DNA of 64,000 nt from Mangrovicoccus algicola (lineage in GTDB: Bacteria > Pseudomonadota > Alphaproteobacteria > Rhodobacterales > Rhodobacteraceae). Where the stretch lies: assembly GCF_014903745.1 (NCBI RefSeq), contig NZ_JACVXA010000001.1:62001-126000 (forward strand). Direction: 5' to 3'. Shown here piece by piece: positions 5,764 through 62,249 of the stretch. Position 1 is the stretch's first letter; each line of letters opens with the position of its first letter. The notes under the pieces are model-generated. The model did not search any database. It was given only the letters and a program-made list of their open reading frames with translations, and was not told the origin of the DNA. The position numbers and the translations under genes are program-made.

Positions 5764-8678
5764 AGGATTTCATCATCCCGTGGGACACCGATGCCGATCT
5801 GGGCACACCCGCCCGCGACGGCAAGCCGGTCACGCTGAGCATCGACGGGGTCGAGGTCACGGTGCCGGAACATACCTCGGTGATGCGCGCCGCGATGCTG
5901 GCGGGGCTGAAGATCCCCAAGCTCTGCGCGACCGACAGCGTCGAGGCCTTCGGGTCCTGCCGTCTCTGCGTCGTGGAAATCGAGGGCCGCCGCGGCACGC
6001 CCGCCTCCTGCACCACCCCGGTCGCGCCGGGGATGAAGGTCCACACCCAGAGCGCCAAGGTGAAGAAGATCCGCAAGGGGGTGATGGAGCTCTATATCTC
6101 CGATCACCCGCTGGACTGCCTCACCTGTTCGGCGAATGGCGATTGCGAATTGCAGGACATGGCCGGCATGGTCGGGCTGCGCGACGTCCGCTATGACAGC
6201 GGGGCAAACCATTTCGACCCCACGGGGACCGGCGCGCTGTCGAAGGCCGAGGCCGACCGCCGCGCGGGGCCGGGCAACTTCCGCTACATCGCGAAGGACA
6301 CATCGAACCCGTATTTCACCTATGACCCGTCCAAATGCATCGTCTGCTCGCGCTGCGTGCGCGCCTGCGAGGAGGTGCAGGGGACATTCGCCCTGACGAT
6401 CGAGGGGCGCGGCTTCGACAGCCGGGTCTCGGCCGGGGCGGCGACGGACAATTTCCTGTCCTCGGATTGCGTCAGCTGCGGCGCCTGCGTGCAGGCCTGT
6501 CCGACCGCGACGCTTCAGGAAAATTCCGTGCGCGACCTGGGCACGCCGGACCGCTCGGTCGTGACGACCTGCGCCTATTGCGGCGTCGGCTGTTCCTTCA
6601 AGGCGGAGCTGAACGGCGACGACCTGGTGCGCATGGTGCCGTGGAAACACGGCAAGGCCAATCGCGGCCATAGCTGCGTCAAGGGCCGGTTCGCCTATGG
6701 CTACGCCGCGCATGCCGACCGCATCCTCAACCCGATGATCCGCGAGCGCATCGAGGATCCCTGGCGCGAGGTCGGCTGGGACGAGGCGATGCGCTTTGCC
6801 GCGGACCGCCTGAAGGGCATCCAGGAACGGCACGGCCGCCGCTCCATCGGCGTCATCACCTCCAGCCGCTGCACCAACGAGGAAACCTATCTGGTGCAGA
6901 AACTGGCCCGCGGCGTGTTCCTCAACAACAACACCGATACCTGCGCGCGGGTCTGCCATTCGCCCACCGGCTACGGGCTGGGCCAGACCTTCGGCACCTC
7001 GGCGGGCACGCAGGATTTCGACTCGGTCGAGCATACGGACGTGGTCATCGTCATCGGCGCCAACCCCACGGACGGCCACCCGGTCTTTGCCTCGCGGCTG
7101 AAGAAACGGCTGCGCCAGGGCGCCCGGCTGATCGTCATCGATCCGCGCCGCATCGACCTGGTGAAATCGGCCCATATCCGCGCCGCGCATCACCTGCCCC
7201 TGCGCCCCGGCACCAATGTCGCCGTCGTCACCAGCCTGGCCCATGTCATCGTCACCGAGGGGCTGCAGGACGCGGCCTTCATCCGCGAGCGCTGCGACGC
7301 GGAGGAGTTCCGGGATTACGCGGAATTCGTCTCGGACCCGCGCCATTCCCCCGAAGCCACCGAGATGCTGACCGGCGTCCCGGCGGCAGAGCTGCGCGCG
7401 GCGGCCCGGCTGTTCGCCACGGGCGGCAATGGCGCGATCTATTACGGGCTGGGCGTGACCGAGCACAGCCAGGGCTCCACCACCGTGATGGGCATCGCCA
7501 ACCTCGCCATGCTGACCGGCAATATCGGGCGGCCGGGCGTGGGGGTGAACCCGCTGCGGGGCCAGAACAACGTCCAGGGCTCCTGCGACATGGGCAGCTT
7601 CCCGCATGAACTGCCGGGCTACCGCCATGTGAAACTGCCCGAGGTCCGCAAGATCTTCGAGGAGGCCTGGGGCGTCACCATCGACCCCGAGCCGGGGCTG
7701 CGCATTCCCAACATGCTGGATGCCGCCGTCAACGGCACGTTCCGGGGGCTCTATTGCCAGGGCGAGGACATCCTGCAATCCGACCCGGACACGAAACACG
7801 TGGCCGCGGGGCTGGCGGCGATGGACTGCGTCATCGTCCATGACCTGTTCCTGAACGAGACCGCGAATTACGCCCATGTCTTCCTGCCGGGTTCGTCCTT
7901 CCTGGAGAAGAACGGCACCTTCACCAACGCGGAACGCCGCATCAACATGGTGCGCAAGGTGATGGCGCCCCGCAACGGCCATGAGGACTGGGAGGTCACC
8001 CAGATGCTGGCCCGCGCGATGGGGGCCGACTGGAATTACCGCCATCCCTCCGAGATCATGGCGGAAATCGCGGCGACCACGCCCAGCTTCGCCAATGTCA
8101 CCTACGAGATGCTGGACGAGAAGGGATCCGTCCAGTGGCCCTGCAACGAGGCCAGCCCCGAGGGCACGCCCCTGATGCATGTGGACGGGTTCGTGCGCGG
8201 CAAGGGACGGTTCATCATCACAGAATACGTGGCGACCGAGGAACGCACCGGGCCGCGCTTCCCGCTCCTGCTGACCACGGGGCGGATCCTCAGCCAGTAC
8301 AATGTCGGGGCCCAGACGCGGCGCACCGGCAATACCGTCTGGCACGGGGAAGACGTGCTGGAAATCCACGCCTCGGATGCGGAAAACCGCGGGGTGAAGG
8401 ATGGCGACTGGATCAGGCTGGCCTCGCGCTCGGGCGAAACCACGTTGCGCGCGCGGATCAGCGACCGCATGATGCCGGGCGTCGTCTATACCACCTTCCA
8501 CCATCCCGACACGCAGGCCAACGTGATCACGACCGATTTTTCCGACTGGGCGACGAACTGCCCCGAATACAAGGTGACCGCCGTGCAGGTCCTGCCCTCC
8601 AACGGGCCCAGCGACTGGCAGGAGGAATACAGCGCCCAGGCCGCGAAATCGCGGCGCATCCTCCCGGCGGCGGAGTGA
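5760..8678 (+). CDS. fdsA: NAD-dependent formate dehydrogenase, alpha subunit (molybdenum catalytic subunit)
   Basis: Oxidises formate to CO2 at a bis-MGD molybdenum centre. The 972 residues run in order: plant-type [2Fe-2S] domain (about 20-110, with GSCRLC), a His-Cys cluster (HPLDCLTC), a two-[4Fe-4S] ferredoxin domain (CIVCSRCVRAC and CVSCGACVQAC), a further cluster CAYCGVGC, then the molybdopterin domains. The Mo ligand is cysteine, not selenocysteine: Cys399 in CARVCHSPT, followed by His400. LRGQNNVQGSCDMG is also typical of the family. The start overlaps the fdsB stop (ATGA). The architecture is that of oxygen-tolerant soluble FDHs such as those of R. capsulatus and Cupriavidus. Confidence 0.96.
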   Translation: MKDFIIPWDTDADLGTPARDGKPVTLSIDGVEVTVPEHTSVMRAAMLAGLKIPKLCATDSVEAFGSCRLCVVEIEGRRGTPASCTTPVAPGMKVHTQSAKVKKIRKGVMELYISDHPLDCLTCSANGDCELQDMAGMVGLRDVRYDSGANHFDPTGTGALSKAEADRRAGPGNFRYIAKDTSNPYFTYDPSKCIVCSRCVRACEEVQGTFALTIEGRGFDSRVSAGAATDNFLSSDCVSCGACVQACPTATLQENSVRDLGTPDRSVVTTCAYCGVGCSFKAELNGDDLVRMVPWKHGKANRGHSCVKGRFAYGYAAHADRILNPMIRERIEDPWREVGWDEAMRFAADRLKGIQERHGRRSIGVITSSRCTNEETYLVQKLARGVFLNNNTDTCARVCHSPTGYGLGQTFGTSAGTQDFDSVEHTDVVIVIGANPTDGHPVFASRLKKRLRQGARLIVIDPRRIDLVKSAHIRAAHHLPLRPGTNVAVVTSLAHVIVTEGLQDAAFIRERCDAEEFRDYAEFVSDPRHSPEATEMLTGVPAAELRAAARLFATGGNGAIYYGLGVTEHSQGSTTVMGIANLAMLTGNIGRPGVGVNPLRGQNNVQGSCDMGSFPHELPGYRHVKLPEVRKIFEEAWGVTIDPEPGLRIPNMLDAAVNGTFRGLYCQGEDILQSDPDTKHVAAGLAAMDCVIVHDLFLNETANYAHVFLPGSSFLEKNGTFTNAERRINMVRKVMAPRNGHEDWEVTQMLARAMGADWNYRHPSEIMAEIAATTPSFANVTYEMLDEKGSVQWPCNEASPEGTPLMHVDGFVRGKGRFIITEYVATEERTGPRFPLLLTTGRILSQYNVGAQTRRTGNTVWHGEDVLEIHASDAENRGVKDGDWIRLASRSGETTLRARISDRMMPGVVYTTFHHPDTQANVITTDFSDWATNCPEYKVTAVQVLPSNGPSDWQEEYSAQAAKSRRILPAAE

Positions 8679-44493: not shown

Positions 44494-45273
44494 TCAGACT
44501 TGGCGTTCGACCATCATCTGCTTGATCGACGCGATCGCCTTGGCCGGGTTCAGCCCCTTCGGGCAGGTCTGGGCGCAGTTCATGATCGTGTGGCAGCGGT
44601 ACAGCTTGAACGGGTCTTCCAGATCGTCCAGGCGCTCGCCCGTGGCCTCGTCGCGGCTGTCGATGATCCAGCGATAGGCATGCAGCAGCGCCGCCGGGCC
44701 GAGATAGCGGTCGCCGTTCCACCAGTAGCTGGGGCAGGAGGTGGAGCAGCTGGCGCACATCACGCATTCATAGAGGCCGTCGAGCTTCTTGCGGTCCTCG
44801 ATGGACTGCTTCCATTCCTGCGCGGGGCGGTTGGTCTTGGTTTCCAGCCAGGGCATGATCGAGGCATGCTGCGCGTAGAAATGGGTCAGGTCGGGGATCA
44901 GGTCCTTGACCACCGGCATGTGCGGCAGCGGATAGATGCGCACATCGCCCTTGATCTCGTCCAGCCCGTAGATGCAGGCCAGCGTGTTGATCCCGTCGAT
45001 ATTCATCGCGCAGGATCCGCAGATCCCCTCGCGGCAGGACCGGCGGAAGGTCAGGGTCGGGTCGACCTCGTTCTTGATCTTGATCAGCGCGTCCAGGACC
45101 ATCGGACCGCATTTGTCCATGTCGAGGAAATAGGTGTCGACCCGCGGATTCTGCCCGTCATCGGGGTTCCAGCGGTAGATCTGGAACTTGCGGACATTGG
45201 TCGCGCCCGCGGGCTTCGGCCACGTCTTGCCCGTGGTGATCTTGGAGTTCTTGGGCAGGGTGAACTGTACCAT
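44494..45273 (-). CDS. sdhB: Succinate dehydrogenase iron-sulfur subunit
   Basis: The electron-transfer subunit of complex II, carrying three Fe-S clusters between the FAD of SdhA and the quinone site. The 259 residues have the [2Fe-2S] site [15 protein letters not shown], the [4Fe-4S] site [13 protein letters not shown] and the [3Fe-4S] site [14 protein letters not shown]. It is the last gene of the sdh group but is separated from sdhA by about 1 kb holding another gene. AGGGG is the ribosome binding site. Confidence 0.97.
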
Positions 45274-45375: not shown

Positions 45376-46155
45376 TCAACGGAAAACGTCCTGCTGACCG
45401 ATGACAAGGGCACGGACCGTCCTTAGGCTCTCGAGTGAGAGATCACTTCGATTGGCTTGAAGCATGAAGTCCAAGGCACCGGGCGACAGGCTCTCATTCT
45501 CCCGCTCGGGCAGTTCCATCGCCGACACGACATCCGACGGGACACCAGCATATCGAAGCAAGCCTGCGCCCGGAAACGGATCCGATTGTGCATCATCTTC
45601 AATCGCGTCGAAACGTATCGGAGCAGTAGTCGCTTCCCTGATCAGGGCAATGTTCACGTCCCAACCATGGTCAAAATTCTGCAGACGGCTCCATTCATCG
45701 AAACCGAAACGGCACCGCACCTGTTTCACTTCCTGGTTGTATGCGCTTAACAACCAGTTGTCGAAATTGCGGGTGAAAAAGGAAAATCTGCACTCCGCGT
45801 CATGAGAAACCCGCTCCAGCAAATGGATAAGCTCCGCAGTCCGAGTGAACAGATTACCCGTTTTCGGCGAAAGGCGAAAACCGATCAGATTCTCGTCCGA
45901 GACGAGCATCCGGCTCTGCCCCCGGCCCCGGGCCTCCCCAATCATCTGATCCACGGCCGTGGCCATGTCTGCCTCTGCCTGTCCGCGATCCTTCCCGGAC
46001 CAGTACCGATTGCAGGCATGTCGCAGCCGCCGTGTCGTCTTGCCCTTCGGGAAAACTCCCAGGAACGGCTCCAAGCGCTCGGAGTTCCGCGCGAGCAGCG
46101 TCTGGAAAGACGTGGTGCCGGTTTTCTGAAAACCGAGATGCCAATAGATAAGCAC
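45376..46155 (-). CDS. Sulfotransferase-like protein inserted in the sdh operon
   Basis: A 259-residue protein placed between sdhA and sdhB. The N-terminus MLIYWHLGFQKTGTTSFQTL has the 5'-phosphosulfate (P-loop like) motif K-T-G-T-T-S of sulfotransferases. The matching 3'-phosphate element is FFTRNFDNWLLSAYNQEVKQ. Base use is lower in GC than the neighbours, with many CGG/AGC and A/T-ending codons, so it looks acquired. The start is GTG 46155 after GAGGG. The acceptor (a sugar, lipid or peptide) is unknown. Confidence 0.72.
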   Translation of the reverse strand: MLIYWHLGFQKTGTTSFQTLLARNSERLEPFLGVFPKGKTTRRLRHACNRYWSGKDRGQAEADMATAVDQMIGEARGRGQSRMLVSDENLIGFRLSPKTGNLFTRTAELIHLLERVSHDAECRFSFFTRNFDNWLLSAYNQEVKQVRCRFGFDEWSRLQNFDHGWDVNIALIREATTAPIRFDAIEDDAQSDPFPGAGLLRYAGVPSDVVSAMELPERENESLSPGALDFMLQANRSDLSLESLRTVRALVIGQQDVFR

Positions 46156-46295: not shown

Positions 46296-48098
46296 TCAGA
46301 ACGTCCGGGCCTTCGGCGCGATGCGCTTGAGGCTGATGCCGCCCTCGGTCTCGGCGGTCAGCGGATCGGTGATGACCGGACGATAGGACAGGTCGACCGC
46401 GTTTCCGTCGACGCGCATGATCGAATGCACGCGCCAGTTCTCGTCGTCGCGCTCCGGGTAATCCTCATGCGCATGCGCGCCACGGCTTTCGTGGCGGGCC
46501 TCGGCGCCGATGATCGTCGCCAGGGCGTTCGGCATGAGGTTGGTCAGCTCCAGCGTCTCCATCAGGTCCGAATTCCAGACCAGCGAGGTGTCGGTCACCT
46601 TCAGGTCGCCGATCTTGGCGGCGATGGCGGTCATCTTCTCGACCCCGTCCTTCAGGCTCTCGGAGGCGCGGAACACGGCCGCATCCGCCTGCATCGTGCG
46701 CTGCATCTCCAGGCGCAGATCCGCGGTGGGGAGGCCGCCCTGCGCATGGCGCAGCCCGTCGAACCGGTCGAAGGCCTTGTCGATCTGCGACTTGGGCGCG
46801 AGCGGTATCGCGGCCTCGCGATCGACCACCTCGCCCGCGCGGATCGCGGCGGCGCGGCCGAAGACCACGAGGTCGATCAGCGAGTTGGACCCCAGACGGT
46901 TGGCCCCGTGCACGGAGGCGCAGCCGGCCTCGCCCACGGCCATCAGGCCCGGAACGATCGCGGTCGGATCATCGGCGGTCGGGTTCAGCACCTCGCCCCA
47001 GTAGTTCGTGGGGATGCCGCCCATGTTGTAATGGACCGTCGGCAGGACCGGGATCGGTTCCTTGTTCAGGTCCACGCCGGCGAAGATCTTGGCGCTTTCC
47101 GAGATGCCCGGCAGGCGTTCGGCCAGGGTTTCCGGCGGCAGGTGGTTGAGATGCAGGAAGATGTGGTCCTTGTGCTCGCCCACGCCGCGGCCCTCGCGGA
47201 TCTCCATGGTCATCGAGCGGCTGACATAGTCGCGCGGCGCCAGGTCCTTGTAGGTCGGCGCGTAGCGTTCCATGAACCGCTCGCCCTCGGAGTTCGTCAG
47301 ATAGCCGCCCTCGCCGCGGGCGCCCTCGGTGATCAGGCAGCCCGAGCCGTAGATGCCGGTCGGGTGGAACTGCACGAATTCCATGTCCTGCAGCGCCAGC
47401 CCGGCGCGCGCCACCATGCCGCCGCCATCGCCGGTGCAGGTATGGGCGGAGGTCGCCGAGAAATACGCGCGGCCATAGCCGCCGGTGGCCAGCACGACCA
47501 TCTTGGCGTTGAACACGTGCATCGTGCCGTCATCGAGCTTCCAGCACAGCACGCCCTTGCAGACGCCGTCCTCCATCAGCAGGTCGATGGCGAAATACTC
47601 GATGTAGAATTCCGCGTTGTTCTTCAGCGACTGGCCATAGAGCGTGTGCAGGATCGCGTGGCCGGTGCGGTCGGCCGCGGCGCAGGTGCGCTGCACGGGC
47701 GGGCCCTCGCCGAATTCGGTCGTGTGGCCGCCGAAGGGACGCTGGTAGATCTTGCCTTCCTCGGTCCGCGAGAAGGGCACGCCGTAATGCTCCAGCTCGT
47801 AGACCGCTGCCGGGGCCGAGCGCGCCAGGTATTCCATCGCGTCGGTATCGCCCAGCCAGTCCGACCCCTTGACGGTGTCGTACATGTGCCACTGCCAGTT
47901 GTCGGGGCCCATGTTCGACAGCGAGGCGGCGATCCCGCCCTGCGCCGCCACAGTGTGCGACCGGGTGGGGAAGACCTTGGTGACGCAGGCGGTCCTCAGA
48001 CCCTGCTCGGCCATGCCCAGCGTCGCGCGGAGCCCAGCCCCGCCCGCGCCGACCACCACCACGTCGTAATTGTGGGATTCGTATTCGTAGGAAGCCAT
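46296..48098 (-). CDS. sdhA: Succinate dehydrogenase flavoprotein subunit
   Basis: The catalytic subunit of complex II, 600 residues, oxidising succinate to fumarate with covalently bound FAD. FAD motif [18 protein letters not shown]; His48 in [10 protein letters not shown] is the covalent flavin site; [27 protein letters not shown] and the active-site HTCTGDG and RGQ-like RMDYHR region equivalents (in [14 protein letters not shown]) are typical. It starts 72 bases past sdhD and lies upstream of the sulfotransferase-like insertion. Confidence 0.97.
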
Positions 48099-48170: not shown

Positions 48171-48542
48171 TTAGAGCGCCAGACGGGCGACCGCGAACAG
48201 ACCGACGAGGATCAGCAGGTAGGCAAAGCAGCGCACCGCCACCAGCGCCAGCTTCTGCGCGGTGCCGTGCACGTAATCCTCGACTGCCTCGACGGCCTCG
48301 TTCATCGTGTGGTTCACGACCACCAGCAGCGTGATCGCCATCACCAGCGCCGGGAAGGGACGGCTGTAATAGGCCATGACCTCCTCGTGGCTTCCGCCGA
48401 GGCCGATGCCGAAGGTGATGATGAAGACCGGCAGGACGATGACCAGGGCGATGGAGCTGACCATCATGTGCCAGTGATGCTGCGTGCCGCCCCGGGCGGA
48501 CCCCAGTCCCTGCGCGCGCTTGCGATCGGTCATGTATTTCAT
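48171..48542 (-). CDS. sdhD: Succinate dehydrogenase membrane anchor subunit SdhD
   Basis: A 123-residue three-helix anchor protein (helices about 28-50, 63-80 and 96-118). SARGGTQHHWHMMVSSIALV carries the usual N-terminal helix, and HTMNEAVEAVEDYVHG has the charged loop and histidine that help bind haem b and quinone. It lies 10 bases after sdhC and before sdhA. Confidence 0.9.
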   Translation of the reverse strand: MKYMTDRKRAQGLGSARGGTQHHWHMMVSSIALVIVLPVFIITFGIGLGGSHEEVMAYYSRPFPALVMAITLLVVVNHTMNEAVEAVEDYVHGTAQKLALVAVRCFAYLLILVGLFAVARLAL

Positions 48543-48552
48543 GATGCGCCCC

Positions 48553-48951
48553 TCAGAAGATCAGAAAGCCGAGAACGACCAGGACCGTCAGGACCGTGGC
48601 GAGGACGAACATGCCCATCCCCATCTTCCTGGAGATCTCGAGGTCCAGACCGTAGCCGAGATCCCAGATCACGTGGCGCAGGCGGCCGAGCAGGTGATAG
48701 AACATCGCCCAGAGCGCGCCCAGCATGATCAGGTAGCCGAACCAGCTGCGCAGGAACCCGTCCCATCCGGCGAAGGCGGAGCCCGACCCCGAGGCGGCCA
48801 GCAGCCAGGCCACGGGCAGGATGCTCAGGCACAGCAGGGCGATCCCGGTGATGCGCACCATGATCGACGACACGGAAGTGATCTGCGGACGGTAGTACTG
48901 TCCTATCATGAATGGGGAAAGCGGCCGGTTTCCCCGGTTCACATCTGCCAT
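48553..48951 (-). CDS. sdhC: Succinate dehydrogenase cytochrome b556 subunit SdhC
   Basis: The other membrane anchor of complex II, 132 residues and three helices. The typical start RPLSPFMIGQYYRPQITSVSSIMVRITGIAL and the H-x-x-GR-x-R-H motif FYHLLGRLRHVIWDLGYGL (haem and quinone site) are present. It is the first gene of the operon and follows the twin-palindrome operator. Confidence 0.95.
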   Translation of the reverse strand: MADVNRGNRPLSPFMIGQYYRPQITSVSSIMVRITGIALLCLSILPVAWLLAASGSGSAFAGWDGFLRSWFGYLIMLGALWAMFYHLLGRLRHVIWDLGYGLDLEISRKMGMGMFVLATVLTVLVVLGFLIF

Positions 48952-49291
48952 GGGTTGCCCTCTCGGAAGTTCGCCTTTGGTCGTGGCATCGGTCTTAGCA
49001 CCTTTTGCTCCGATGTCATCCGCCCCACAATCGCAAAAGCGCGATCTTTTGGCGCAATTGGCGCTAACAGCGTGGATTTGTGATCACGCCCACCAATCGT
49101 GTGATCACAAACCAAATCCGACCAAAAGAGTCCCTCCCCTGCCGGCCCCGGGACGGCCCGAGATGAGTCGAAACGCCCCGCGGCGGCGGGGCGGAGGGGA
49201 GATCCCGCCCCGAACTGCCGGTACGGCGCAACGGCAGCCGCAATGCCTCCTCCCGCAGCGAAGCCGCCCCTTGCGGCCGCGCCGCGCCGCA
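48952..49291. other. Leader/control region of the sdh operon
   Basis: A 340-bp gene-free stretch between mch and sdhC. It holds the operator at 49077-49111 and, nearer to sdhC, AT-richer sequence expected for the promoter. I could not fix the -10/-35. Confidence 0.5.
49077..49111. promoter_or_regulatory. Twin TGTGATCACA operator upstream of sdhC
   Basis: TTTGTGATCACG and GTGTGATCACAAA form two palindromic units whose centres are 21 bp apart, i.e. two turns of the helix. The same arrangement occurs before sucC. It lies 126-160 bases upstream of sdhC. The regulator is not known from the sequence. Confidence 0.7.
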
Positions 49292-50329
49292 TCACGCCGG
49301 CATCAGCGCCCAGTAATCCAGGTCCAGCAAGATCCCGGGCAGGTAGCGCCCCCCTGCGTCGCGCAGCTCCCCCGGCGCCGCGGGGCCCGTCCCGGCCACC
49401 AGCCGAAGCCGGATGGCGCCGACCCCCGGCGCGGCGGTCGGCGCCTTGTCCAGCACCTGCGACCAGGCGCGGACGGTCATGCCGGCAAAGGCCGGATTCG
49501 CATGCGCCCCGGCATTCAGGCCGACGATCATCTGGGCATTCGCCAGCCCGTTGAAGCTGAGCGCGCGGGCCAGGCTGAGGATATGGCCGCCATAGATCAG
49601 CCTGCGGCCGTCCTCCCGGGCGGTGGCGTCGAAATGCACCCGCGCCGTGTTCTGCCACAGCCGGGTGGCCATCATGTGCTCGGCCTCCTCCAGCGTGACG
49701 CCGTCGACATGATCGATGATCTCGCCCAGCCGGTAGTCGGCCATGCGGTGCGGCTCGCCGGCCAGGGTGAAATCGTAGCGGGTGAAATCCAGCCCCGCGG
49801 GGACGGCCAGCGTCGCGGGATCGATCACGGCATCAAGCTCGGGGAGGACCGCCGCGGGGGCCGGCGCCCCGGGATCGCGCTTGCGCACCATCACCCAGCG
49901 GACATAGTCCAGCACCGGGTCGCCATGCTGGTTCAGCCCGCGGCTGCGCACATAGACCACGCCGGAGCGGCCATTGGAGGTCTCGCGCAGGCCGATCACC
50001 TCGGAGCTGGCCCGCAGCGTGTCGCCGGGGCGGACCGGGCGCAGCCAGCGGCCCTGTGCATAGCCCAGATTGGCGACCGCGTTCAGCGAGATGTCCGGCA
50101 CCGTCTTGCCGAAGACGACATGGAAGGCGATCAGGTCGTCGACCGGCGCAGAGGCCAGCCCGCAGGCCTGCGCGAAGACGTCCGAGGAGTGCAGCGCGTG
50201 CCGCGCCGGATAGAGCGCGTGATACAGGGCGCGCTCCCCTCCGGACACGGTGCGCGGCACGGCATGGTCGATCACCTGCCCCACCGCGTAATCCTCGAAG
50301 AACCGGCCGGAGCCGGTCTTGGCGGCCAT
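49292..50329 (-). CDS. mch: Mesaconyl-CoA hydratase
   Basis: Hydrates mesaconyl-CoA (C1-CoA) to beta-methylmalyl-CoA in the ethylmalonyl-CoA pathway. The protein of about 345 residues is a double hot-dog (MaoC-like) fold: N-terminal half with GRFFEDYAVGQVIDHAVPRTVSGGERALYHALYP, C-terminal half with RLGEIIDHVDGVTLEEAEHMMATRLWQNTARVHFDA and GGHILSLARALSFNGL. The ATG at 50329 overlaps the stop of the DUF1737 gene (TGATG); GTG 50332 is possible. It is next to the Mcl2 gene. Confidence 0.92.
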   Translation of the reverse strand: MAAKTGSGRFFEDYAVGQVIDHAVPRTVSGGERALYHALYPARHALHSSDVFAQACGLASAPVDDLIAFHVVFGKTVPDISLNAVANLGYAQGRWLRPVRPGDTLRASSEVIGLRETSNGRSGVVYVRSRGLNQHGDPVLDYVRWVMVRKRDPGAPAPAAVLPELDAVIDPATLAVPAGLDFTRYDFTLAGEPHRMADYRLGEIIDHVDGVTLEEAEHMMATRLWQNTARVHFDATAREDGRRLIYGGHILSLARALSFNGLANAQMIVGLNAGAHANPAFAGMTVRAWSQVLDKAPTAAPGVGAIRLRLVAGTGPAAPGELRDAGGRYLPGILLDLDYWALMPA

Positions 50330-50532
50330 CACTGCGCCCCCAGTTTCATCTCCGGCGTATAGGGCGTGTCGATCTCCTTGGTCACCGCCTGGCCGCAGCG
50401 CATCACGCCGTTGGAGGCGTCGAAGGCATATTGCGGATCGCCATGCAGCTCCCAGCCCTTCGACAGGGCCTCGCTGACCTTGTGGCAGAAGGCGGAGGTG
50501 TCATCCTCGGTGAGGAAGCGATAGATTTTCAT
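50329..50532 (-). CDS. DUF1737 family protein
   Basis: A 67-residue soluble protein: MKIYRFLTEDDTSAFCHKVSEALSKGWELHGDPQYAFDASNG and then CGQAVTKEI. This matches the DUF1737 pattern (Y-x-V...F-x-x-x-V...L-x-x-GW-x-x-x-GG) of small proteins of unknown role. It is translationally coupled to mch and lies 6 bases after the NnrU gene. Confidence 0.8.
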   Translation of the reverse strand: MKIYRFLTEDDTSAFCHKVSEALSKGWELHGDPQYAFDASNGVMRCGQAVTKEIDTPYTPEMKLGAQ

Positions 50533-50538
50533 GGTCTC

Positions 50539-51087
50539 TCATCCCATCGGGTAGTGGCCGGTCCAGACATGCACCGCGACCGCGGCGGCATAGAAGACGA
50601 TTCCGTAAAGAACCGCCTTGAGATCTCCGCGCCGGTCCTCGGCCGGTCTCTCCCAATGCGGCTCGGCGCGGTTGATGACGATGACCGACGCCACGGCCCA
50701 GCCCAGCATGCTGCCGAAAAGCAGGATCGAGGCGAGATCGCCATTCACCATCAGATGCGCCACCGCCCAGAGCTTGACCGCGCTCAGCATCGGGTGGCGG
50801 ATGCGCCGCGCCAGCCCGCCCTTGGTCTGGCCCAGCATGAACAGGAAGACGGCGCCCAGCATCAGCACGTTGTTCAGATGCGTCATCAGCGCGGGCGGCG
50901 TCCAGACGGCGACATAGGGCGTCGCGCGGAAACCCAGCACCATCAGCACCACCGACAGCCCGACCAGCGCGGCGACGATCCCGCGGCCGGAGCGGCCCAT
51001 CGCCTCGCGCCGCGCAGGGGCGAGCCTGCCGAGGAGATGCGCCCCGACCCACAGCGCGATCCCGGCGATGAGGGCAAGCCAGGCCAT
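50539..51087 (-). CDS. NnrU-family membrane protein
   Basis: A 182-residue inner-membrane protein of about six helices. MAWLALIAGIALWVGAHL, the GFRATPYVAVW segment and RIRHPMLSAVKLWAVAHLMVNGDLASILLFG are the NnrU signatures; NnrU was first linked to denitrification and nitrite respiration, and similar isomerase-like proteins occur elsewhere. ATG 51087 overlaps the Mcl2 stop by one base. The role in this carbon-assimilation operon is unclear. Confidence 0.88.
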   Translation of the reverse strand: MAWLALIAGIALWVGAHLLGRLAPARREAMGRSGRGIVAALVGLSVVLMVLGFRATPYVAVWTPPALMTHLNNVLMLGAVFLFMLGQTKGGLARRIRHPMLSAVKLWAVAHLMVNGDLASILLFGSMLGWAVASVIVINRAEPHWERPAEDRRGDLKAVLYGIVFYAAAVAVHVWTGHYPMG

Positions 51088-51968
51088 CAGGCGACCCCCT
51101 CTTCCAGCTTGGCGATGGCCGCGGCGCGCGCCAGGGTCTGTTTCGCGGTCACGATATGCAGGGTCTCGACGATGCGCCCGTCGACCACGGCGACCCCCTC
51201 GCCGCAGGCGGCGGCCTCCGCCTGCGCCGCAATCTGGCGCTGCGCCGTGGCGATTTCCTCGGTCGAGGGGGCGAAGGCGGCATTGGCGGCGGCGATCTGG
51301 TCGGGATGGATCAGGGTCTTGCCGTCGAAGCCCATGTCGCGGCCCTGCGCGCATTCCGCGGCCAGGCCCTCCGCATCGCGGAAGGCATTGTACACCCCGT
51401 CGAGAATCGTCAGCCCCGCCGCCCGCGCCGCCAGCAGGCACAGCTGCAGCGAGGTCAGCAGCGGTTCGCGGTCTGCCCGGTTTCTGATCATCAGTTCCTT
51501 GGCCAGGTCATTCGTGCCCATGACCAGCCCGCCCATGCGCGGCGCCGGCACGATCTCGCCGACATTGAGGATCCCGCGCGGGGTTTCCATCATCGCCCAT
51601 ATCTCTGTCGCTTCGCAGCCCGGCACGTCCTCCAGCATCGCGGCCGCCATGCGGATCGGCTCGGGGCTTTCGACCTTCGGGATCAGGATCGCATCGGGCG
51701 CGCAGGCCGCCATCGCGGCCAGGTCGTCGCGCCCCCATTCGGTGTCGAACCCGTTGATCCGGCAGATCTTTGCCCGCGCCCCATAGCCGCCTTCCTCCAG
51801 CACCTGCCGCAGCAGGTCGCGGGCGGCCTGCTTCTCGGTCAGGGCAACGGCATCCTCGAGGTCGAAGATGATCGCATCCGCCGGAAGGCGCCGCGCCTTG
51901 TCCAGCGCCCGGGCCTTCGAGCCGGGAATATAGAGTGTGGAACGATAGGGGCGCGCACGTTGGTCCAT
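51087..51968 (-). CDS. mcl2: HpcH/HpaI-type CoA ester lyase, probable (3S)-malyl-CoA thioesterase
   Basis: A 293-residue TIM-barrel enzyme of the CitE superfamily. YRSTLYIPGSKARALDKARRLPADAIIFDLEDAV, IPKVESPEPI, MMETPRGILNVGEI and GFDGKTLIHPDQI are present. Its length and N-terminus resemble Mcl2, the malyl-CoA thioesterase which with Mcl1 gives apparent malate synthase activity in R. sphaeroides; the longer Mcl1 sequence is different. CitE-like lyases are the alternative. It is first in an operon mcl2-nnrU-DUF1737-mch. Confidence 0.82.
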   Translation of the reverse strand: MDQRARPYRSTLYIPGSKARALDKARRLPADAIIFDLEDAVALTEKQAARDLLRQVLEEGGYGARAKICRINGFDTEWGRDDLAAMAACAPDAILIPKVESPEPIRMAAAMLEDVPGCEATEIWAMMETPRGILNVGEIVPAPRMGGLVMGTNDLAKELMIRNRADREPLLTSLQLCLLAARAAGLTILDGVYNAFRDAEGLAAECAQGRDMGFDGKTLIHPDQIAAANAAFAPSTEEIATAQRQIAAQAEAAACGEGVAVVDGRIVETLHIVTAKQTLARAAAIAKLEEGVA

Positions 51969-52309
51969 GATTCTTTCCTTCGGGGTGCCTGTTTTGTACT
52001 TATATTGCGCAGCCGGAAAACGCTCGCGGCCACTTGCCGCATCGCCGTCCCGGGGGGCGGACCATGACAGTTTTACGAAGCCATGCGGATCCCGGGCGCG
52101 CCGTGTTTACCTGATCTTCGAACCCCGGCGCCCAGGCTTCTGCCGCCGGCAGGGGCCGAAAGGAAGCCCGACATCCCGGCGCGACGAACCGGCCCGAGCA
52201 CCCGGAGTGACCTAGAACCGGGGCGGCGCCTTCGCAGTGCCCTTTCCAGCGCCCCTCTCCGGCGCCCGGCCTGCGCAAGGGCTGCGCCCCTTTGGGAAAG
52301 GACGTAGCA
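51969..52309. other. 341-bp intergenic region
   Basis: Between the divergent mcl2 and small secreted protein genes; should carry the promoter of both. I see no clear palindrome, terminator or ORF; it is GC-rich with several short hairpins. Confidence 0.4.
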
Positions 52310-52630
52310 ATGAGGATATCCCTGACAAGCCTGTGCCTCGCGGCCATCGTCGCGGGCATGGCCCCCGCCCGGGCCGCGGACCAGCCGGCACGCAACTGCG
52401 CCGATCGCGGCGACGTGCTGAAACGGCTGTCGGGCAATTACGGCGAGACCCGGCAGAGCGTCGGACTGGGCGCCAACAACTCGCTGGTCGAGGTCTTCGC
52501 CTCGGACAAGACCGGCACCTGGACGATCACCGTCACCATGCCCGACGGCATGACCTGCCTGATCGCCTCGGGCCAGGCCTACGAGAAACTGCTCGGCGAC
52601 AAGCTGCTGCGCCCGGGCGAGGACGCCTGA
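52310..52630 (+). CDS. Small secreted protein of unknown function
   Basis: A 106-residue periplasmic protein. The signal peptide covers about 22 residues (LCLAAIVAGMAPARAA). The mature part NCADRGDVLKRLSGNYGETRQSVGLGANNSLVEVFASDKTG and TVTMPDGMTCLIASGQAYE has two cysteines, perhaps a disulfide. ATG 52310 has AAAGGA upstream. No family recognised with certainty; many Rhodobacteraceae encode this type. Confidence 0.7.
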   Translation: MRISLTSLCLAAIVAGMAPARAADQPARNCADRGDVLKRLSGNYGETRQSVGLGANNSLVEVFASDKTGTWTITVTMPDGMTCLIASGQAYEKLLGDKLLRPGEDA

Positions 52631-52711
52631 ACCCGGTCCCCTCCCGCCGGTGCCGTTTTGCTTCGACTTGCCGCGCAGAGCCGTCTTGCACGGAAATGAC
52701 TTAGCGACTAG

Positions 52712-53713
<1,002 letters not shown>

Positions 53714-53750
53714 TCCGGGCTTGCGCTCCCGGCGGGGAGTTGCTTTCACG

Positions 53751-53779
53751 AAGGGGGTCGCATCTGCGGCCCCCTTTGC
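53751..53779 (+). terminator. Terminator or attenuator of mdh
   Basis: AAGGGGGTCGC pairs with GCGGCCCCCTT (one G-U) around ATCT; only a short TTT follows. The next gene's ribosome binding site starts just after, so it may allow read-through. Confidence 0.6.
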
Positions 53780-53792
53780 GTGAGGAGAGACC

Positions 53793-54647
53793 ATGCCCTG
53801 GGCCAGCCCCGAAAGCCTTGCCCCCGCCAGCTGCGGGTTCGTCCTTGCCGCATCGGGACGCAAATATGCCACCGCCGCCGAAGCCGCGGCGCGCAGCCTG
53901 CGCCGGTCGAACCCGGATTTCGAGGTCGACATCTTCACCGACGAGGAGGTGGACGCGTCGCTCTTCGGGCAGGTGCACCGGCTGGAGAAAAGCTGGTTCC
54001 GCCCCAAGTTCGAGGCGCTGATCAAGTCCCGCTTCGACCGCACGATCTACCTGGATGTCGATCTCGTCGTGCTGGGCGACATGTCGGACGTGTTCTTCGT
54101 CCTGGGCAAATACGACATCGCGGCGGTGCAGGCCACCAACCGCAACCAGGGCTTTGCCTGGAAACCCTGGCGCATGCCGCTGCCCAACGCCTTTCCGCAG
54201 ATCAATGGCGGCATGATCGCGATCCGCCGCAGCGCGCCGGTGCTGCAATTCCTGCGCGACTGCCAGCAGGCCATGATCGATCACGACATGAAGCGCGACC
54301 AGCCGGTCTTCCGCGAGATGCTGTGGCAGAGCGACCTGCGGCTGCATGTGCTTCCGCCCGAATACAATGTCCGCAACCGCACGCTGTGGCAGTATGGCGG
54401 TTCGAAATTCGCCGCGCCAAGGGTGCTGCACCATACCGGCTTCGTCGCGCGGATGAAGGATGACCGGACGCCGGTGCGCCCGGAGGAGATCTATGGCCGC
54501 GGCTTCGTGCGGCACGTGCAGCGCCTGATCGGCGCCGACCGGCAGCTGACCCCCGGCGCAAGGGGAAGCGTCCCCGCCCCGCAATATGACAATATCCTGT
54601 TCCGGGGCCGCGACTGGCTGGCCGCGCGGCTGGGCGGGCGCGGCTGA
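53793..54647 (+). CDS. Glycosyltransferase (GT8-like, nucleotide-sugar)
   Basis: A 284-residue cytosolic enzyme. CGFVLAASGRKYATAAEAAARSL and a GT-A fold pattern lead to the DxD-type motif IYLDVDLVVLGDMSD (about 87-101), which binds the metal and nucleotide sugar. NAFPQINGGMIAIRRSAP is the usual acceptor-side strand. It is placed between mdh and sucC, where such a gene is not usual. The target (LPS, capsule or glycolipid) is unknown. Confidence 0.8.
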   Translation: MPWASPESLAPASCGFVLAASGRKYATAAEAAARSLRRSNPDFEVDIFTDEEVDASLFGQVHRLEKSWFRPKFEALIKSRFDRTIYLDVDLVVLGDMSDVFFVLGKYDIAAVQATNRNQGFAWKPWRMPLPNAFPQINGGMIAIRRSAPVLQFLRDCQQAMIDHDMKRDQPVFREMLWQSDLRLHVLPPEYNVRNRTLWQYGGSKFAAPRVLHHTGFVARMKDDRTPVRPEEIYGRGFVRHVQRLIGADRQLTPGARGSVPAPQYDNILFRGRDWLAARLGGRG

Positions 54648-54749
54648 GCGGCCGGGGAACGAGGTGATTCGCAGGTCCCGGCAGGGGCGCAGCGGCGGCT
54701 TCGGCGCAATTTCGCCAGTACCGCTTGATGATCCTGCAAGCTGCGCCGA

Positions 54750-54784
54750 TTTGTGATCACACCATTCGGACGTGTGATCACAAA
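54750..54784. promoter_or_regulatory. Twin TGTGATCACA operator upstream of sucC
   Basis: TTTGTGATCACAC and GTGTGATCACAAA, centres 21 bp apart, an arrangement identical to the one before sdhC apart from one base in the left arm. It lies 109-143 bases upstream of sucC. It is strong evidence of a shared regulator for both TCA operons. Confidence 0.75.
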
Positions 54785-54892
54785 TACGGGTTTCTGCCCC
54801 CGACGCGTCAAATGCGACAGATTTTCGGTTCAAAGGTCGCGCCGCGTGGTGTTTAGACAGGGGCACAACTTGCACAGGACGGGACAGCTTTC

Positions 54893-56086
54893 ATGAACAT
54901 TCATGAATACCAGGCGAAAGCCCTTCTTCGCAGCTACGGCGCTCCGGTGTCCGATGGCCGCGTCGTACTGAAAGCGGAGGAGGCGAAGACCGCCGCAGGT
55001 GAACTCGAAGGCCCGCTCTGGGTCGTCAAGGCCCAGATCCATGCCGGCGGCCGCGGCAAGGGCAAATTCAAGGAGGCCGAGGCCGGCGAGAAGGGCGGCG
55101 TGCGCCTGGCGAAATCGGTCGAGGAGGCCGAGGAACTGACCAAGCAGATGCTGGGCCGCACCCTGGTCACGCATCAGACCGGCCCGGCCGGCAAGCAGGT
55201 CAACCGCATCTACATCGAAGACGGCTCCGACATCGAGACCGAGCTGTACCTTGCGCTGCTGGTCGACCGCGTGACGTCGCGCATCTCCTTCGTCTGCTCC
55301 ACCGAGGGCGGCATGGACATCGAGGAAGTCGCCGCGAACACCCCCGAGAAGATCCTGTCCTTCTCGGTCGATCCGGCCACCGGCTACCAGCCCTATCACG
55401 GCCGCCGCATCGCCTTCTCGCTGGGACTGACCGGCGCGCAGGTCAAGCAGTGCGTCAAGCTGATGGGCGATCTCTACCGGGCCTTCGTCGAGAAGGACAT
55501 GGAGATGCTGGAGATCAACCCGCTGATCGTCATGACCGACGGCAACCTGAAGGTCCTGGACGCCAAGCTGGGCTTCGACGGCAACGCCATCTACCGTCAT
55601 CCCGACATCGCCGCGCTGCGCGACGAGACCGAGGAAGACGCCAAGGAACTGGCCGCCTCGAAATTCGACCTCAACTACATCGCGCTGGACGGCGAGATCG
55701 GCTGCATGGTCAACGGCGCGGGCCTGGCGATGGCGACGATGGACATCATCAAGCTCTACGGTGCCGAGCCTGCCAACTTCCTCGACGTGGGCGGCGGCGC
55801 AACCAAGGAGAAGGTGACCGAGGCCTTCAAGATCATCACGTCCGACAAGAACGTGAAGGGCATCCTGGTCAACATCTTCGGCGGCATCATGCGCTGCGAC
55901 GTCATCGCCGAGGGCGTTCTGGCCGCGGTGAAGGAAGTCGGCCTGCAGGTCCCGCTGGTCGTCCGTCTCGAAGGCACGAATGTCGAGAAGGGCAAGGAAA
56001 TCATCGCGAATTCCGGCATGAACGTGATCGCGGCCGACAACCTGTCCGACGGCGCCGAGAAAATCGTGAAGGCCGTCAAAGGCTGA
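54893..56086 (+). CDS. sucC: Succinyl-CoA synthetase beta subunit (ADP-forming)
   Basis: Binds the nucleotide and joins with SucD to convert succinyl-CoA to succinate with substrate-level phosphorylation. The 397-residue protein has an ATP-grasp fold: [44 protein letters not shown] and [18 protein letters not shown], then [13 protein letters not shown] and [11 protein letters not shown]. It is preceded by the twin operator, and a small lipoprotein gene lies between it and sucD. Confidence 0.97.
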
Positions 56087-56529: not shown

Positions 56530-56598
56530 GTGAGTTTGCAGGCGGAACCGCCTGCCCCGAATGAACGCGGTCAACCGCACGAATACAGGAGAAGCCAC

Positions 56599-57483
56599 AT
56601 GGCTGTCCTCGTTGACGAAAACACCAAGGTCATCTGCCAGGGCATCACCGGCTCGCAGGGCACCTTCCACTCCGAGCAGGCGATCGCCTACGGCACCAAG
56701 ATGGTCGGCGGCGTGACCCCCGGCAAGGGTGGCACCACCCATCTGGACCTGCCGGTCTTCAACTCCGTGCACGAAGCCAAGCACGTGACCGAAGCCAACG
56801 CGTCGGTCATCTACGTGCCGCCGCCCTTCGCGGCCGACTCGATCCTCGAGGCGATCGATGCCGAGATGGAGCTGATCATCTGCATCACCGAGGGCATCCC
56901 GGTGCTCGACATGATGAAGGTCAAGCGCGCGCTGGTGGATTCGAAGTCCCGCCTGATCGGGCCGAACTGCCCGGGCGTCATCACGCCGGATGCCTGCAAG
57001 ATCGGCATCATGCCGGGCCATATCCACCGCCGCGGCCGCGTCGGCGTCGTGTCGCGTTCCGGCACGCTGACCTACGAGGCCGTGAAGCAGACCACCGATC
57101 TGGGCCTGGGCCAGTCCTCGGCTGTGGGCATCGGCGGCGACCCGATCAAGGGCACCGAGCATATCGACGTGCTGGAGATGTTCCTGGCCGATGACGAGAC
57201 CGACGCGATCATCATGATCGGCGAAATCGGCGGCTCGGCCGAAGAGGACGCGGCGCAGTTCCTGGCCGACGAGAAGAAGCGCGGCCGCTGGAAACCGACC
57301 GCGGGCTTCATCGCCGGGCGCACCGCCCCTCCGGGCCGCCGCATGGGCCATGCCGGCGCCATCGTCGCCGGCGGCAAGGGCGGTGCCGAGGACAAGATCG
57401 CCGCGATGGAAGCGGCCGGCATCATCGTCGCAGACAGCCCCGCCACGCTGGGCGAGGCCGTTCTGAAGGCAATGGGCAAGTAA
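56599..57483 (+). CDS. sucD: Succinyl-CoA synthetase alpha subunit
   Basis: Carries the phosphohistidine and binds CoA in the succinyl-CoA synthetase reaction. The 294 residues begin [34 protein letters not shown] is the CoA site, and His251 in [13 protein letters not shown] is the phosphorylated histidine. AGGAGAAG precedes ATG 56599; an in-frame ATG at 56530 is too far upstream. A terminator follows. Confidence 0.97.
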
Positions 57484-57784
57484 ATTCCGCAGGCGCGCGG
57501 GAAACCGCGCGCCGCATTCCCGCCCGCAGACCGCCGGTCTGTCTTTCTTTACCACCCCGAGGCTACCTCTCCCCGATGGGACAAGGAAACGCGATCAGAG
57601 CCCGTGACATGCAGCCGGCCGCCCCCGTGGCGCGCCGGCCGCACGGGTTCCGCTGGCAGTTCCGCGATGTCCAGGTGCTGACATCCGGTCCCGCGACCTT
57701 ATCTGACAGCATATCGTCCGCAGAGGCCCTGCCGGGCGCCGCCGCACCGAATTCATTGGGATGCAACCCCCGAGAGGCACAGCC
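57484..57784. other. Terminator and promoter region between sucD and sucA
   Basis: 301 bp. After sucD comes GGCGCGCGG-GAAA-CCGCGCGCC (57492-57513, a perfect 9-bp stem with a GNRA loop) and then an intrinsic terminator at 57527-57550. Further on CTGACA (57678-57683), 16 bases, TATCTG (57700-57705) could be the sucA promoter. No TGTGATCACA operator is seen here. Confidence 0.5.
57527..57550 (+). terminator. Intrinsic terminator of sucCD
   Basis: CAGACC-GCC-GGTCTG stem, followed by the T-rich TCTTTCTTT. The preceding 9-bp GAAA-loop hairpin may add stability to the mRNA end. Confidence 0.7.
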
Positions 57785-60748
57785 ATGACCGAAATGAGCA
57801 AGAACGACATATTCCATGCCTCCAGCTTTCTGCAGGGCCAGAATGCGGAGTATATCGAACAGCTCTACGCGATATATGCAGCGGACCCGTCCAGCGTGGA
57901 CGCCGCCTGGGCGGAGTTCTTCGCCTCGCTCGGGGATGCCGGGACCGATGTGACCGCCGAGGCGAAAGGCCCCTCCTGGGGCCGCATGGACTGGCCGCCG
58001 ACCCCCAATGACGACCTGACCCAGGCCCTGGACGGCCAATGGGCCAGCCCCGCCGTCGAGATGAAAGCCGCGGGCGACAAGATCAAGTCCAAGGCCGCCG
58101 AGAAGGGCGTCTCCGTTTCGGATGACGCGGTGAAGCGCGCCGTCCTGGATTCCGTGCGCGCGCTGATGATCATCCGCGCCTACCGGATCCGCGGCCACCT
58201 GGTGGCCGACCTGGACCCGCTGAACATGCGCCAGGTCACGCCGCATCCGGAACTGGATCCGAAATCCTACGGCTTCACCGATGCCGACATGGACCGCCCG
58301 ATCTTCATCGACAACGTGCTGGGCCTGCCGCTGGCCTCGATGCGCCAGATCATGTCGATCATCAAGCGCACCTATTGCGGCACCTTCGCCCTGCAATACA
58401 TGCACATCTCGGATCCCGAGCAGGCCGGCTGGCTGAAGGAGCGGATCGAGGGCTTCGACAAGGAGATCACCTTCACCCGCGAAGGCCGCCGCGCCATCCT
58501 CAACAAGCTGGTGGAGGCCGAGGGCTTCGAGAAGTTCCTGCATGTCAAGTACATGGGGACCAAGCGCTTCGGCCTCGACGGCGGCGAGGCGCTGATCCCC
58601 GCGATGGAACAGATCATCAAGCGCGGCGGCAATCTGGGCGTCAAGGAAGTCGTGATCGGCATGCCGCATCGCGGCCGCCTGAACATCCTCGCCAACGTGA
58701 TGCAGAAACCCTATCGCGCGATCTTCAACGAATTCCAGGGCGGCAGCTTCAAGCCTGAATCCGTGGATGGCTCGGGCGACGTGAAATACCATCTCGGCGC
58801 CTCCTCGGACCGCGAATTCGACGGCAACTCGGTGCACCTGTCGCTGACCGCGAACCCCTCGCACCTGGAGGCGGTGAACCCGGTCGTCCTCGGCAAGGCG
58901 CGCGCCAAGCAGGACCAGCTGTCGGACAAGGAACGCCGCGCGGTCATCCCGATCCTGCTGCATGGCGATGCGGCCTTCGCGGGACAGGGCGTCGTGGCGG
59001 AATGCTTCGCGCTTTCGGGCCTGCGCGGCCACCGCACCGGCGGCACCATCCATATCGTGGTGAACAACCAGATCGGCTTCACCACCGCGCCGCATTTCTC
59101 GCGCTCCTCGCCCTATCCCACCGACAACGCGCTGGTGGTCGAGGCGCCGATCTTCCACGTCAATGGCGACGATCCCGAGGCGGTGGTCCATGCCGCCAAG
59201 GTGGCGACCGAGTTCCGCCAGAAATTCGGCAAGGACGTGGTCATCGACATCTTCTGCTATCGCCGCTTCGGTCACAACGAGGGCGATGAACCGATGTTCA
59301 CGCAGCCCGAGATGTACACCAAGATCAAGCGCCACAAGACCACGCTGCAGCTCTACACGGAGCGGCTGGTCCAGGACGGGCTGATCCCCGAGGGCGAGAT
59401 CGAGGACATGAAGGCGCAGTTCCAGGCGCTGATGAACGAGGAATTCGAGGCCGGGAAAGAATACAAGCCCAACAAGGCCGACTGGCTGGATGGCCGCTGG
59501 TCCTCGCTGGACCAGGAAGGTCAGGAATACCAGCGCGGCCAGACCGGCATCAAGGAAGAGACCTTCCGCGAGATCGGCCGCGCGCTGACCCAGATCCCCG
59601 ACTCCGTGCATACCCACAAGACGATCGGCCGCTTCGTCGGCGCCCGCGCCGAGATGTTCGAAAGCGGCAAGGGCTTCGACTGGGCGACCGCCGAGGCGCT
59701 GGCCTTCGGCTCGCTGCAGACCGAAGGGTTCCCCGTGCGCCTGTCGGGCCAGGACGTGACCCGCGGCACCTTCTCCCAGCGTCATTCCGGCCTCGTCGAC
59801 CAGAAGACCGAGGACCGCTATTACCCGCTGAACCATATCCGCGAGGGCCAGGCGCATTACGAGGTGATCGACTCGGCGCTTTCGGAATACGCCGTCCTGG
59901 GCTTCGAATACGGCTATTCGCTGGCCGAACCGAATGCGCTGGTGCTGTGGGAAGGCCAGTTCGGCGATTTCGCCAACGGCGCGCAGATCATGTTCGACCA
60001 GTTCATCTCCTCGGGCGAACGCAAGTGGCTGCGCATGTCGGGCCTGACCGTCCTGCTGCCGCACGGTTTCGAGGGCCAGGGCCCCGAGCACAGCTCGGCC
60101 CGGCTGGAACGGTTCCTGCAGATGTCGGCCGAGGATAACTGGATCGTCGCGAACTGCTCGACCCCGGCGAACTACTTCCACATCCTGCGCCGCCAGCTGC
60201 ACCGCAACTTCCGCAAGCCGCTGATCCTGATGACGCCGAAATCGCTGCTGCGCCACAAGCTGTGCGTGTCCGAGCTGAAGGATTTCGTCGAGGGCTCCAG
60301 TTTCCACCGGGTGCTGAAGGACCATGCGGATATCGGCGAACACCCCACCAAGCTGGTGTCGGACGACAAGATCAAGCGCGTCGTGCTGTGTTCGGGCAAG
60401 GTCTATTACGACCTGCTGGAAGAACGCGACGCCCGCGGGATCGACGATGTCTACCTGCTGCGCGTCGAGCAGTTCTATCCCTTCCCGGCGATGAGCCTGG
60501 TGGAGGAGCTGCAGCGGTTCAAGGGCGCCGAGATGGTCTGGTGCCAGGAAGAGCCCAAGAACCAGGGCGCCTGGAGCTTCATCGAACCCAATATCGAATG
60601 GGTGCTGGACAAGATCGGCGCCACCCACAAGCGGCCCGTCTATGCAGGGCGCGCCGCCTCGGCCTCGCCGGCGACCGGCCTGGCCAGCCAGCACAAGGCA
60701 CAGCAGAACGCGCTCGTGAACGCAGCGCTTACGACCGAAGGGAACTAA
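57785..60748 (+). CDS. sucA: 2-oxoglutarate dehydrogenase E1 component
   Basis: The thiamine-diphosphate decarboxylase of the 2-oxoglutarate dehydrogenase complex, 987 residues. The N-terminal SucB-docking sequence [32 protein letters not shown] is followed by LFIDNVLG-like region, [55 protein letters not shown] and the ThDP motif [11 protein letters not shown] ... [12 protein letters not shown]. The C-terminal [20 protein letters not shown] site is present. GAGAGG precedes ATG 57785. It has its own control region. Confidence 0.96.
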
Positions 60749-60752
60749 AGCA

Positions 60753-62249
<1,497 letters not shown>

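Follow-up and report, generated by a model that had tools for sequence, protein, structure and literature searches.

Twin palindromes upstream of sdhC and sucC

In Mangrovicoccus algicola, two operons of central energy metabolism, one starting with sdhC and the other with sucC, are each preceded by a pair of palindromes with the core GTGATCAC, which raises the question of which regulator binds there and to what effect. Both pairs lie in the stretch analyzed here, 64,000 nucleotides of contig NZ_JACVXA010000001.1 (positions 62,001 to 126,000 of the forward strand), which is called the window below and whose own numbering is used unless a contig is given. With a probability of roughly 0.86, these twin palindromes serve as operators for the AkgR orthologue of M. 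algicola and activate the sdhC and sucC operons. The sites and the genes behind them are as follows (gene names were assigned by eye and from gene order; bp, base pairs):

49079..49109, minus strand: twin GTGATCAC operator 5′ of sdhC, 13 bases (N13) between the cores, centers 21 bp apart
54752..54782, plus strand: twin GTGATCAC operator 5′ of sucC, N13 between the cores, centers 21 bp apart
48553..48951, minus strand: sdhC, first gene of the sdh cluster
54893..56086, plus strand: sucC

Both twin palindromes are present where a preliminary description of this DNA had claimed them, 21 bp from center to center at each site. That description had also taken all four units to be identical, which holds for three of them. 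At sucC both units (54752-54761 and 54773-54782) are exact copies of the 10-mer, as is the unit at 49100-49109 before sdhC, but the distal sdhC unit (49079-49088, TGTGATCACG) carries one changed base. A scan of the window for the 10-mer with up to two mismatches yielded five matches, namely the four units and one further match at 8522, and thereby bore out the claim that no such site lies before mdh (52751) or sucA (57761). A lone loose match of this kind is not rare, the mean for the shuffled window being 14, and it is the twin arrangement and not the single unit which is the exceptional feature.

Occurrence in the genome and among relatives

A search for the pair through the genome and through relatives, as proposed by the preliminary description, gave no third copy in the former and a well kept pair in the latter. 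In the whole genome, TGTGATCACR-N11-TGTGATCACA has two matches, which are the sdhC and sucC sites. The exact 10-mer occurs at nine places, three of them in these two sites; the other six fall within or at the ends of long open reading frames, which in GC-rich DNA are a weak sign of coding, and two of the six share one hutI-like frame (judged by eye). Among 149 genomes of the family, one per genus, GTGATCAC-N13-GTGATCAC with at most one mismatch was found in 130, some of these one-mismatch matches resembling chance matches in coding DNA, and the backwards control was found in none of the 149. The claim that chance is a very unlikely origin of the pair therefore stands.

The places at which the pair is kept are also the same. 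In 19 of 20 retrieved regions it lies 5′ of sdhC or sucC, even where the two operons are on separate contigs. In the remaining region (L044; G042:C16:226800-229800, site at 1494) the twin site is located 5′ of a fumC-type fumarase gene, a third target from the tricarboxylic acid (TCA) cycle in one genome. A scan of named genomes returned at least 119 stretches, of which 80 were made into loci; of the 86 twin places in these loci, 84 precede sucC or sdhC, and the other two, each close to the end of a locus, are unassigned. Judged by genus name, nearly all of the 80 loci listed presumably belong to Rhodobacterales, the exceptions being two bins assigned to (Alpha)proteobacteria only, one Robiginitomaculum bin and one Maritalea strain. 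The records titled Robiginitomaculum and Maritalea (L121 and L115) are sucC loci with a twin site, and their SucC proteins are 94% and 86% identical to that of the window; misbinning or misnaming is possible for both.

When 385 genomes of Alphaproteobacteria were searched for the exact N13 pair, six contained it, four of which belong to this family (five family members were sampled), and the backwards control gave one match. In the two genomes from outside the family the pair lies before a GntR-type gene (G295) or is unassigned (G350). The exact 10-mer occurs in 12 published papers, none of which, judged by title, deals with bacterial carbon regulators.

An operator common to sdhC and sucC, as first proposed from the window, is supported by these results and is conserved in relatives. 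Calling it a TCA regulon was correct as well, except that the regulon is small: two promoters in most genomes examined, the one fumC case and the regulator's own gene.

The spacing between the units is narrowly distributed. With spacers of 3-33 bases allowed, 57 exact pairs were found in 37 genomes, comprising 53 N13, two N12 and two others. The readable sdhC upstreams of 122 orthologue-positive genomes, which were collected via the SdhA protein and not via the motif, yielded 110 pairs with at most one mismatch (97 N13, 12 N12 and one N11).

The candidate regulator

We take the GntR protein RSP_0981 of Rhodobacter sphaeroides to be AkgR. The preliminary description had named AkgR among its candidates and could not match it to the motif; it was the right candidate, as AkgR is very probably the regulator of the twin sites. 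According to excerpts of two published reports, GTGATCAC is the motif of AkgR, a GntR-type activator in R. sphaeroides (PMC6365646), and RSP_0967-6, RSP_0974-6 and RSP_0965-62 are predicted to be under RSP_0981, with succinyl-CoA synthetase, succinate dehydrogenase and 2-oxoglutarate dehydrogenase as targets (PMC4344238). The features of an AkgR regulon are found here as well, namely the GTGATCAC core, sites 5′ of sdh and sucCD(AB), and an AkgR-like GntR/FCD gene whose presence tracks the site.

This gene was singled out from 33 FCD-type GntR matches in the genome. It is located outside the window (G000:C100:22771-23418, minus strand) and, when compared with the GntR gene that follows the twin site of G295 (L062), scores by far the best, with 100 bits as opposed to 65 for the runner-up. 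Its product exceeds the Pfam cut-offs for PF00392 (54.2 bits, cut-off 27) and PF07729 (67.7 bits, cut-off 24.3) and hence belongs to the FCD (FadR-like) subgroup of the GntR family.

CceR (RSP_1663), also named as a candidate in the preliminary description, is not supported by the motif. Its predicted motif is the inverted repeat [A/G/T]GTT-N6-8-AAC[A/C/T], and sdh genes are, according to the same excerpt, also predicted to be under CceR and NtrC (PMC4344238). A scan confined to the 31-bp twin sites found the GTT-N6-8-AAC repeat in neither of the two.

Co-occurrence of the orthologue and the site

With matches up to an E value of about 5e-55 counted as orthologues, 133 of the 149 family genomes contain one; the low edge of this threshold is narrow, as G033 at 49% identity was counted in and paralogues at about 41% were left out. 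The N13 pair is present anywhere in the genome in 125 orthologue-positive genomes and absent from eight, and the corresponding numbers for orthologue-negative genomes are five and 11 (Fisher test, 2e-8). For the sdhC pair with at most one mismatch, 110 of 122 readable orthologue-positive genomes contrast with two of 14 readable orthologue-negative ones (4e-9). This second comparison leaves out eight of the 149 genomes without an sdhA match, G098, in which only 491 bp of contig precede sdhA, and the unreadable G058, G146, G056 and G021.

The genomes which deviate from the rule were inspected individually. Among the eight orthologue-positive genomes without the N13 pair, five have an N12 pair at sucC and three are unreadable (G061, G122 and G147). 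For the 16 orthologue-negative genomes, reading of sucC and sdhC revealed no pair at either gene in 12, a pair in three and one unreadable case. Of 14 named genomes picked for carrying a site, 13 contain an orthologue match, the one without it being Allgaiera indica. A second GntR protein (L315-L321), about 40% identical to the candidate, was found in many genomes.

The regulator's own promoter and gene linkage

The upstream regions (400 bp) of 43 orthologues were examined, 30 of them from the best-scoring family matches and 13 from named genomes. Exact GTGATCAC is present in 30 of the 43, in 26 of these 11-22 bp before the presumed start codon, and the next best 8-mer palindrome in the same set reaches 10 of 43. 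The copy stands alone in 29 of the 30, and the two copies in L309 are 44 bp apart; none of the own-promoter copies has a second unit with one mismatch or none within 30 bp of it. The 400 bp before seven paralogues (L315-L321) contain no GTGATCAC.

In 20 of 55 genomes with listed positions, no more than 20 kb separates the orthologue gene from a twin site; G000 and G027, where the gene and the sites are found on separate contigs, are counted among the 55. The locus tags of R. sphaeroides place RSP_0981 near RSP_0962-0976, as far as the excerpt of PMC4344238 goes, and this neighborhood of the regulator and its targets agrees with the linkage seen here.

Promoter geometry

The following promoter elements are predicted:

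49014..49019, minus strand: predicted −35 box of sdhC (ATGACA), 64.5 bp from the center of the promoter-proximal unit, at a position conserved in relatives
48992..48997, minus strand: predicted −10 box of sdhC (TAAGAC), from a promoter scan
54829..54834, plus strand: tentative −35 box of sucC (TTCAAA), at a conserved T-rich position, +62 from the operator center
54852..54857, plus strand: very tentative −10 box of sucC (TTTAGA), read from the sequence

In a discovery set of 53 sdhC loci, an NTGAC[AT] box lies 72-76 bp from the operator center in 37 and only elsewhere in 11. The 11 displaced boxes are found at 63, 63, 83, 84, 84, 84, 85, 93, 95, 95 and 26 bp, 10 of them near whole helical turns, and 11 of 100,000 random draws gave a mean cosine of the phase as good as that observed. 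The pattern recurred in 87 previously unseen sdhC loci. There, the box was located 63 ± 2.5 bp from the center of the proximal unit, which is the same place as 72-76 bp from the operator center, in 71 loci and only elsewhere in nine. Eight of these nine have a box at most 2.0 bp off a 10.5-bp whole-turn step, up to two turns, with G141 among them having an extra box out of phase. As a 2-bp tolerance spans a large share of all phases, the mean cosine is the test that counts, and it was equaled in 117 of 100,000 random draws. The 87 loci are what remained of 91 after removal of four that had already been viewed (G009, G055, G066 and G133); with all 91 the figure was 18 of 100,000.

At sucC, a T-rich position is conserved at +62 from the center in 76 loci, roughly in phase. 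The best matches of a generic two-box promoter scan of the same 76 upstreams were scattered, and the predicted sucC promoter is therefore placed by the conserved T-rich position only. No clear pattern of a better −35 box in genomes without AkgR could be recognized by eye in 12 sucC and 12 sdhC upstreams. Several sdhC upstreams (for example L012, L023 and L048) contain, between the −35-like box and the twin operator, a second similar stretch of the GCGCCAAAA-CCGCG type, which may be the site of another factor.

Binding to one face of the helix, proposed in the preliminary description, is supported by the unit spacing of 21 or 20 bp and by the phasing of the sdhC −35-like box. The sites, their conservation and spacing, the link to the orthologue and the phasing to the predicted −35 box were computed here, and they suggest the following mechanism. 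Two AkgR dimers, one per GTGATCAC palindrome, would sit on the same helix face about two turns apart, some 100 bp ahead of the transcription starts predicted for sdhC and sucC. From there they could activate both operons through an upstream contact with RNA polymerase (class I-like); the upstream position in phase with the predicted −35 box fits activation. In many relatives, AkgR may in addition hold down its own synthesis through the GTGATCAC copy near the akgR start codon, a location which fits autorepression. The different roles given to the distal pair and the start-codon copy are judged from their positions.

A more general reading of this geometry is put forward tentatively, at slightly less than even odds. 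Paired, far-upstream palindromes 20-21 bp apart would assemble a two-dimer activating complex whose face has to match that of the promoter. Insertions or deletions in the DNA separating operator from promoter would therefore be retained mostly as whole turns, and a lone palindrome at the regulator's own start would serve repression.

Alternative explanations and conflicting observations

Instead of an activator site, the twin site might be a repressor site, with sdhC and sucC shut off by AkgR or by a different protein. Many GntR proteins act as repressors, and the copies before akgR do sit in a repressor-like position. The twin sites, however, are located 5′ of the sdhC −35 box and in phase with it, about 63 bp away when measured from the proximal unit, a placement which speaks for activation insofar as the promoters are correctly predicted. 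In addition, AkgR is termed an activator in the excerpt of PMC6365646, and repression of the two operons appears improbable.

Slightly less probable still is binding by another factor, either a GntR paralogue or an unrelated protein, with the AkgR orthologue co-occurring through shared ancestry only. This idea could draw on the second GntR protein described above and on four site-bearing genomes without a detected AkgR orthologue. Yet, the motif stands ahead of 30 of 43 orthologue genes and of none of the seven paralogues, the AkgR motif given in the excerpt of PMC6365646 is the same GTGATCAC, and the 12 readable genomes with neither orthologue nor sdhC pair represent 12 different genera. A CRP-like protein is a very improbable binder, as the units do contain the TGTGA and TCACA half-sites of the CRP consensus (TGTGA-N6-TCACA) but these abut with a spacer of 0, and no half-site pair with a 6-bp spacer exists in either twin site.

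Several observations weigh against AkgR as the activator acting at the twin sites. The gene of the orthologue in M. algicola itself, which starts directly after a metallopeptidase-like frame, has no GTGATCAC in the 400 bp upstream. A site without a detected orthologue occurs in G019, G096 and G114 of the 149 genomes and in Allgaiera indica (L125), and assembly gaps could be behind some of these cases. Conversely, 10 of the 122 orthologue-positive genomes have no recognizable sdhC pair (three or more mismatches). The −35-like box is missing from five of the 53 discovery and seven of the 87 unseen sdhC loci, and in G032, the ninth displaced unseen locus, it is 218 bp away. Shared descent makes all p values given above too small. 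Finally, the candidate's identity with R. sphaeroides AkgR is likely, being based on motif, targets and gene neighborhood.

Comparison with known systems

With the AkgR (RSP_0981) regulon of R. sphaeroides, as described in the two excerpts, the present system shares the GTGATCAC motif (PMC6365646), the GntR family, and succinyl-CoA synthetase and succinate dehydrogenase as predicted targets (PMC4344238); the comparisons made here add the twin layout in phase with the helix and the GTGATCAC copy at the start of the regulator gene itself, both of which the AkgR literature may already describe. The same palindrome is found at −47 to −40 from the start codon of PS417_07240, a GntR-like protein that regulates a deoxyribonate cluster in Pseudomonas simiae and is 32% identical to AkgR (PMC6365646). 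The pathway is a different one, and the excerpt describes one palindrome and no pair. The GntR/FCD-like gene of L062 (G295, from another family of the class) does have GTGATCAC-N13-GTGATCAC directly upstream, but its product is only about 30% identical to the candidate and no sdh or suc gene was seen beside it within 2.5 kb. The closest solved structure by sequence is Escherichia coli McbR (4p9f; E value 6.3e-20), with a similarity far below orthologue level. McbR governs a different regulon.

Further genes of the two clusters

The remaining genes of both clusters, likewise named by eye and from gene order, are:

48171-48542: sdhD, sdh cluster
46296-48098: sdhA, sdh cluster
44494-45273: sdhB, sdh cluster
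56530-57483: sucD, after sucC
57761-60748: sucA, after sucC
60753-62249: sucB, after sucC

An open reading frame at 45376-46155, sulfotransferase-like by eye, lies between sdhA and sdhB and interrupts the usual sdhCDAB order.

Significance

The operator kept before two operons of central energy metabolism in a large environmental family hereby gains a likely regulator. The unit spacing of 21 or 20 bp and the position of the sdhC −35-like box, which lies at a constant distance from the operator or is shifted by whole helical turns, are possibly new, although the AkgR literature may already describe them. The comparison offers a simple rule, a pair versus a lone copy and whole-turn spacing, and AkgR regulons become callable from sequence. 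If the geometry reading is true, the sdhC promoters of this family would record a natural helix-phasing experiment.

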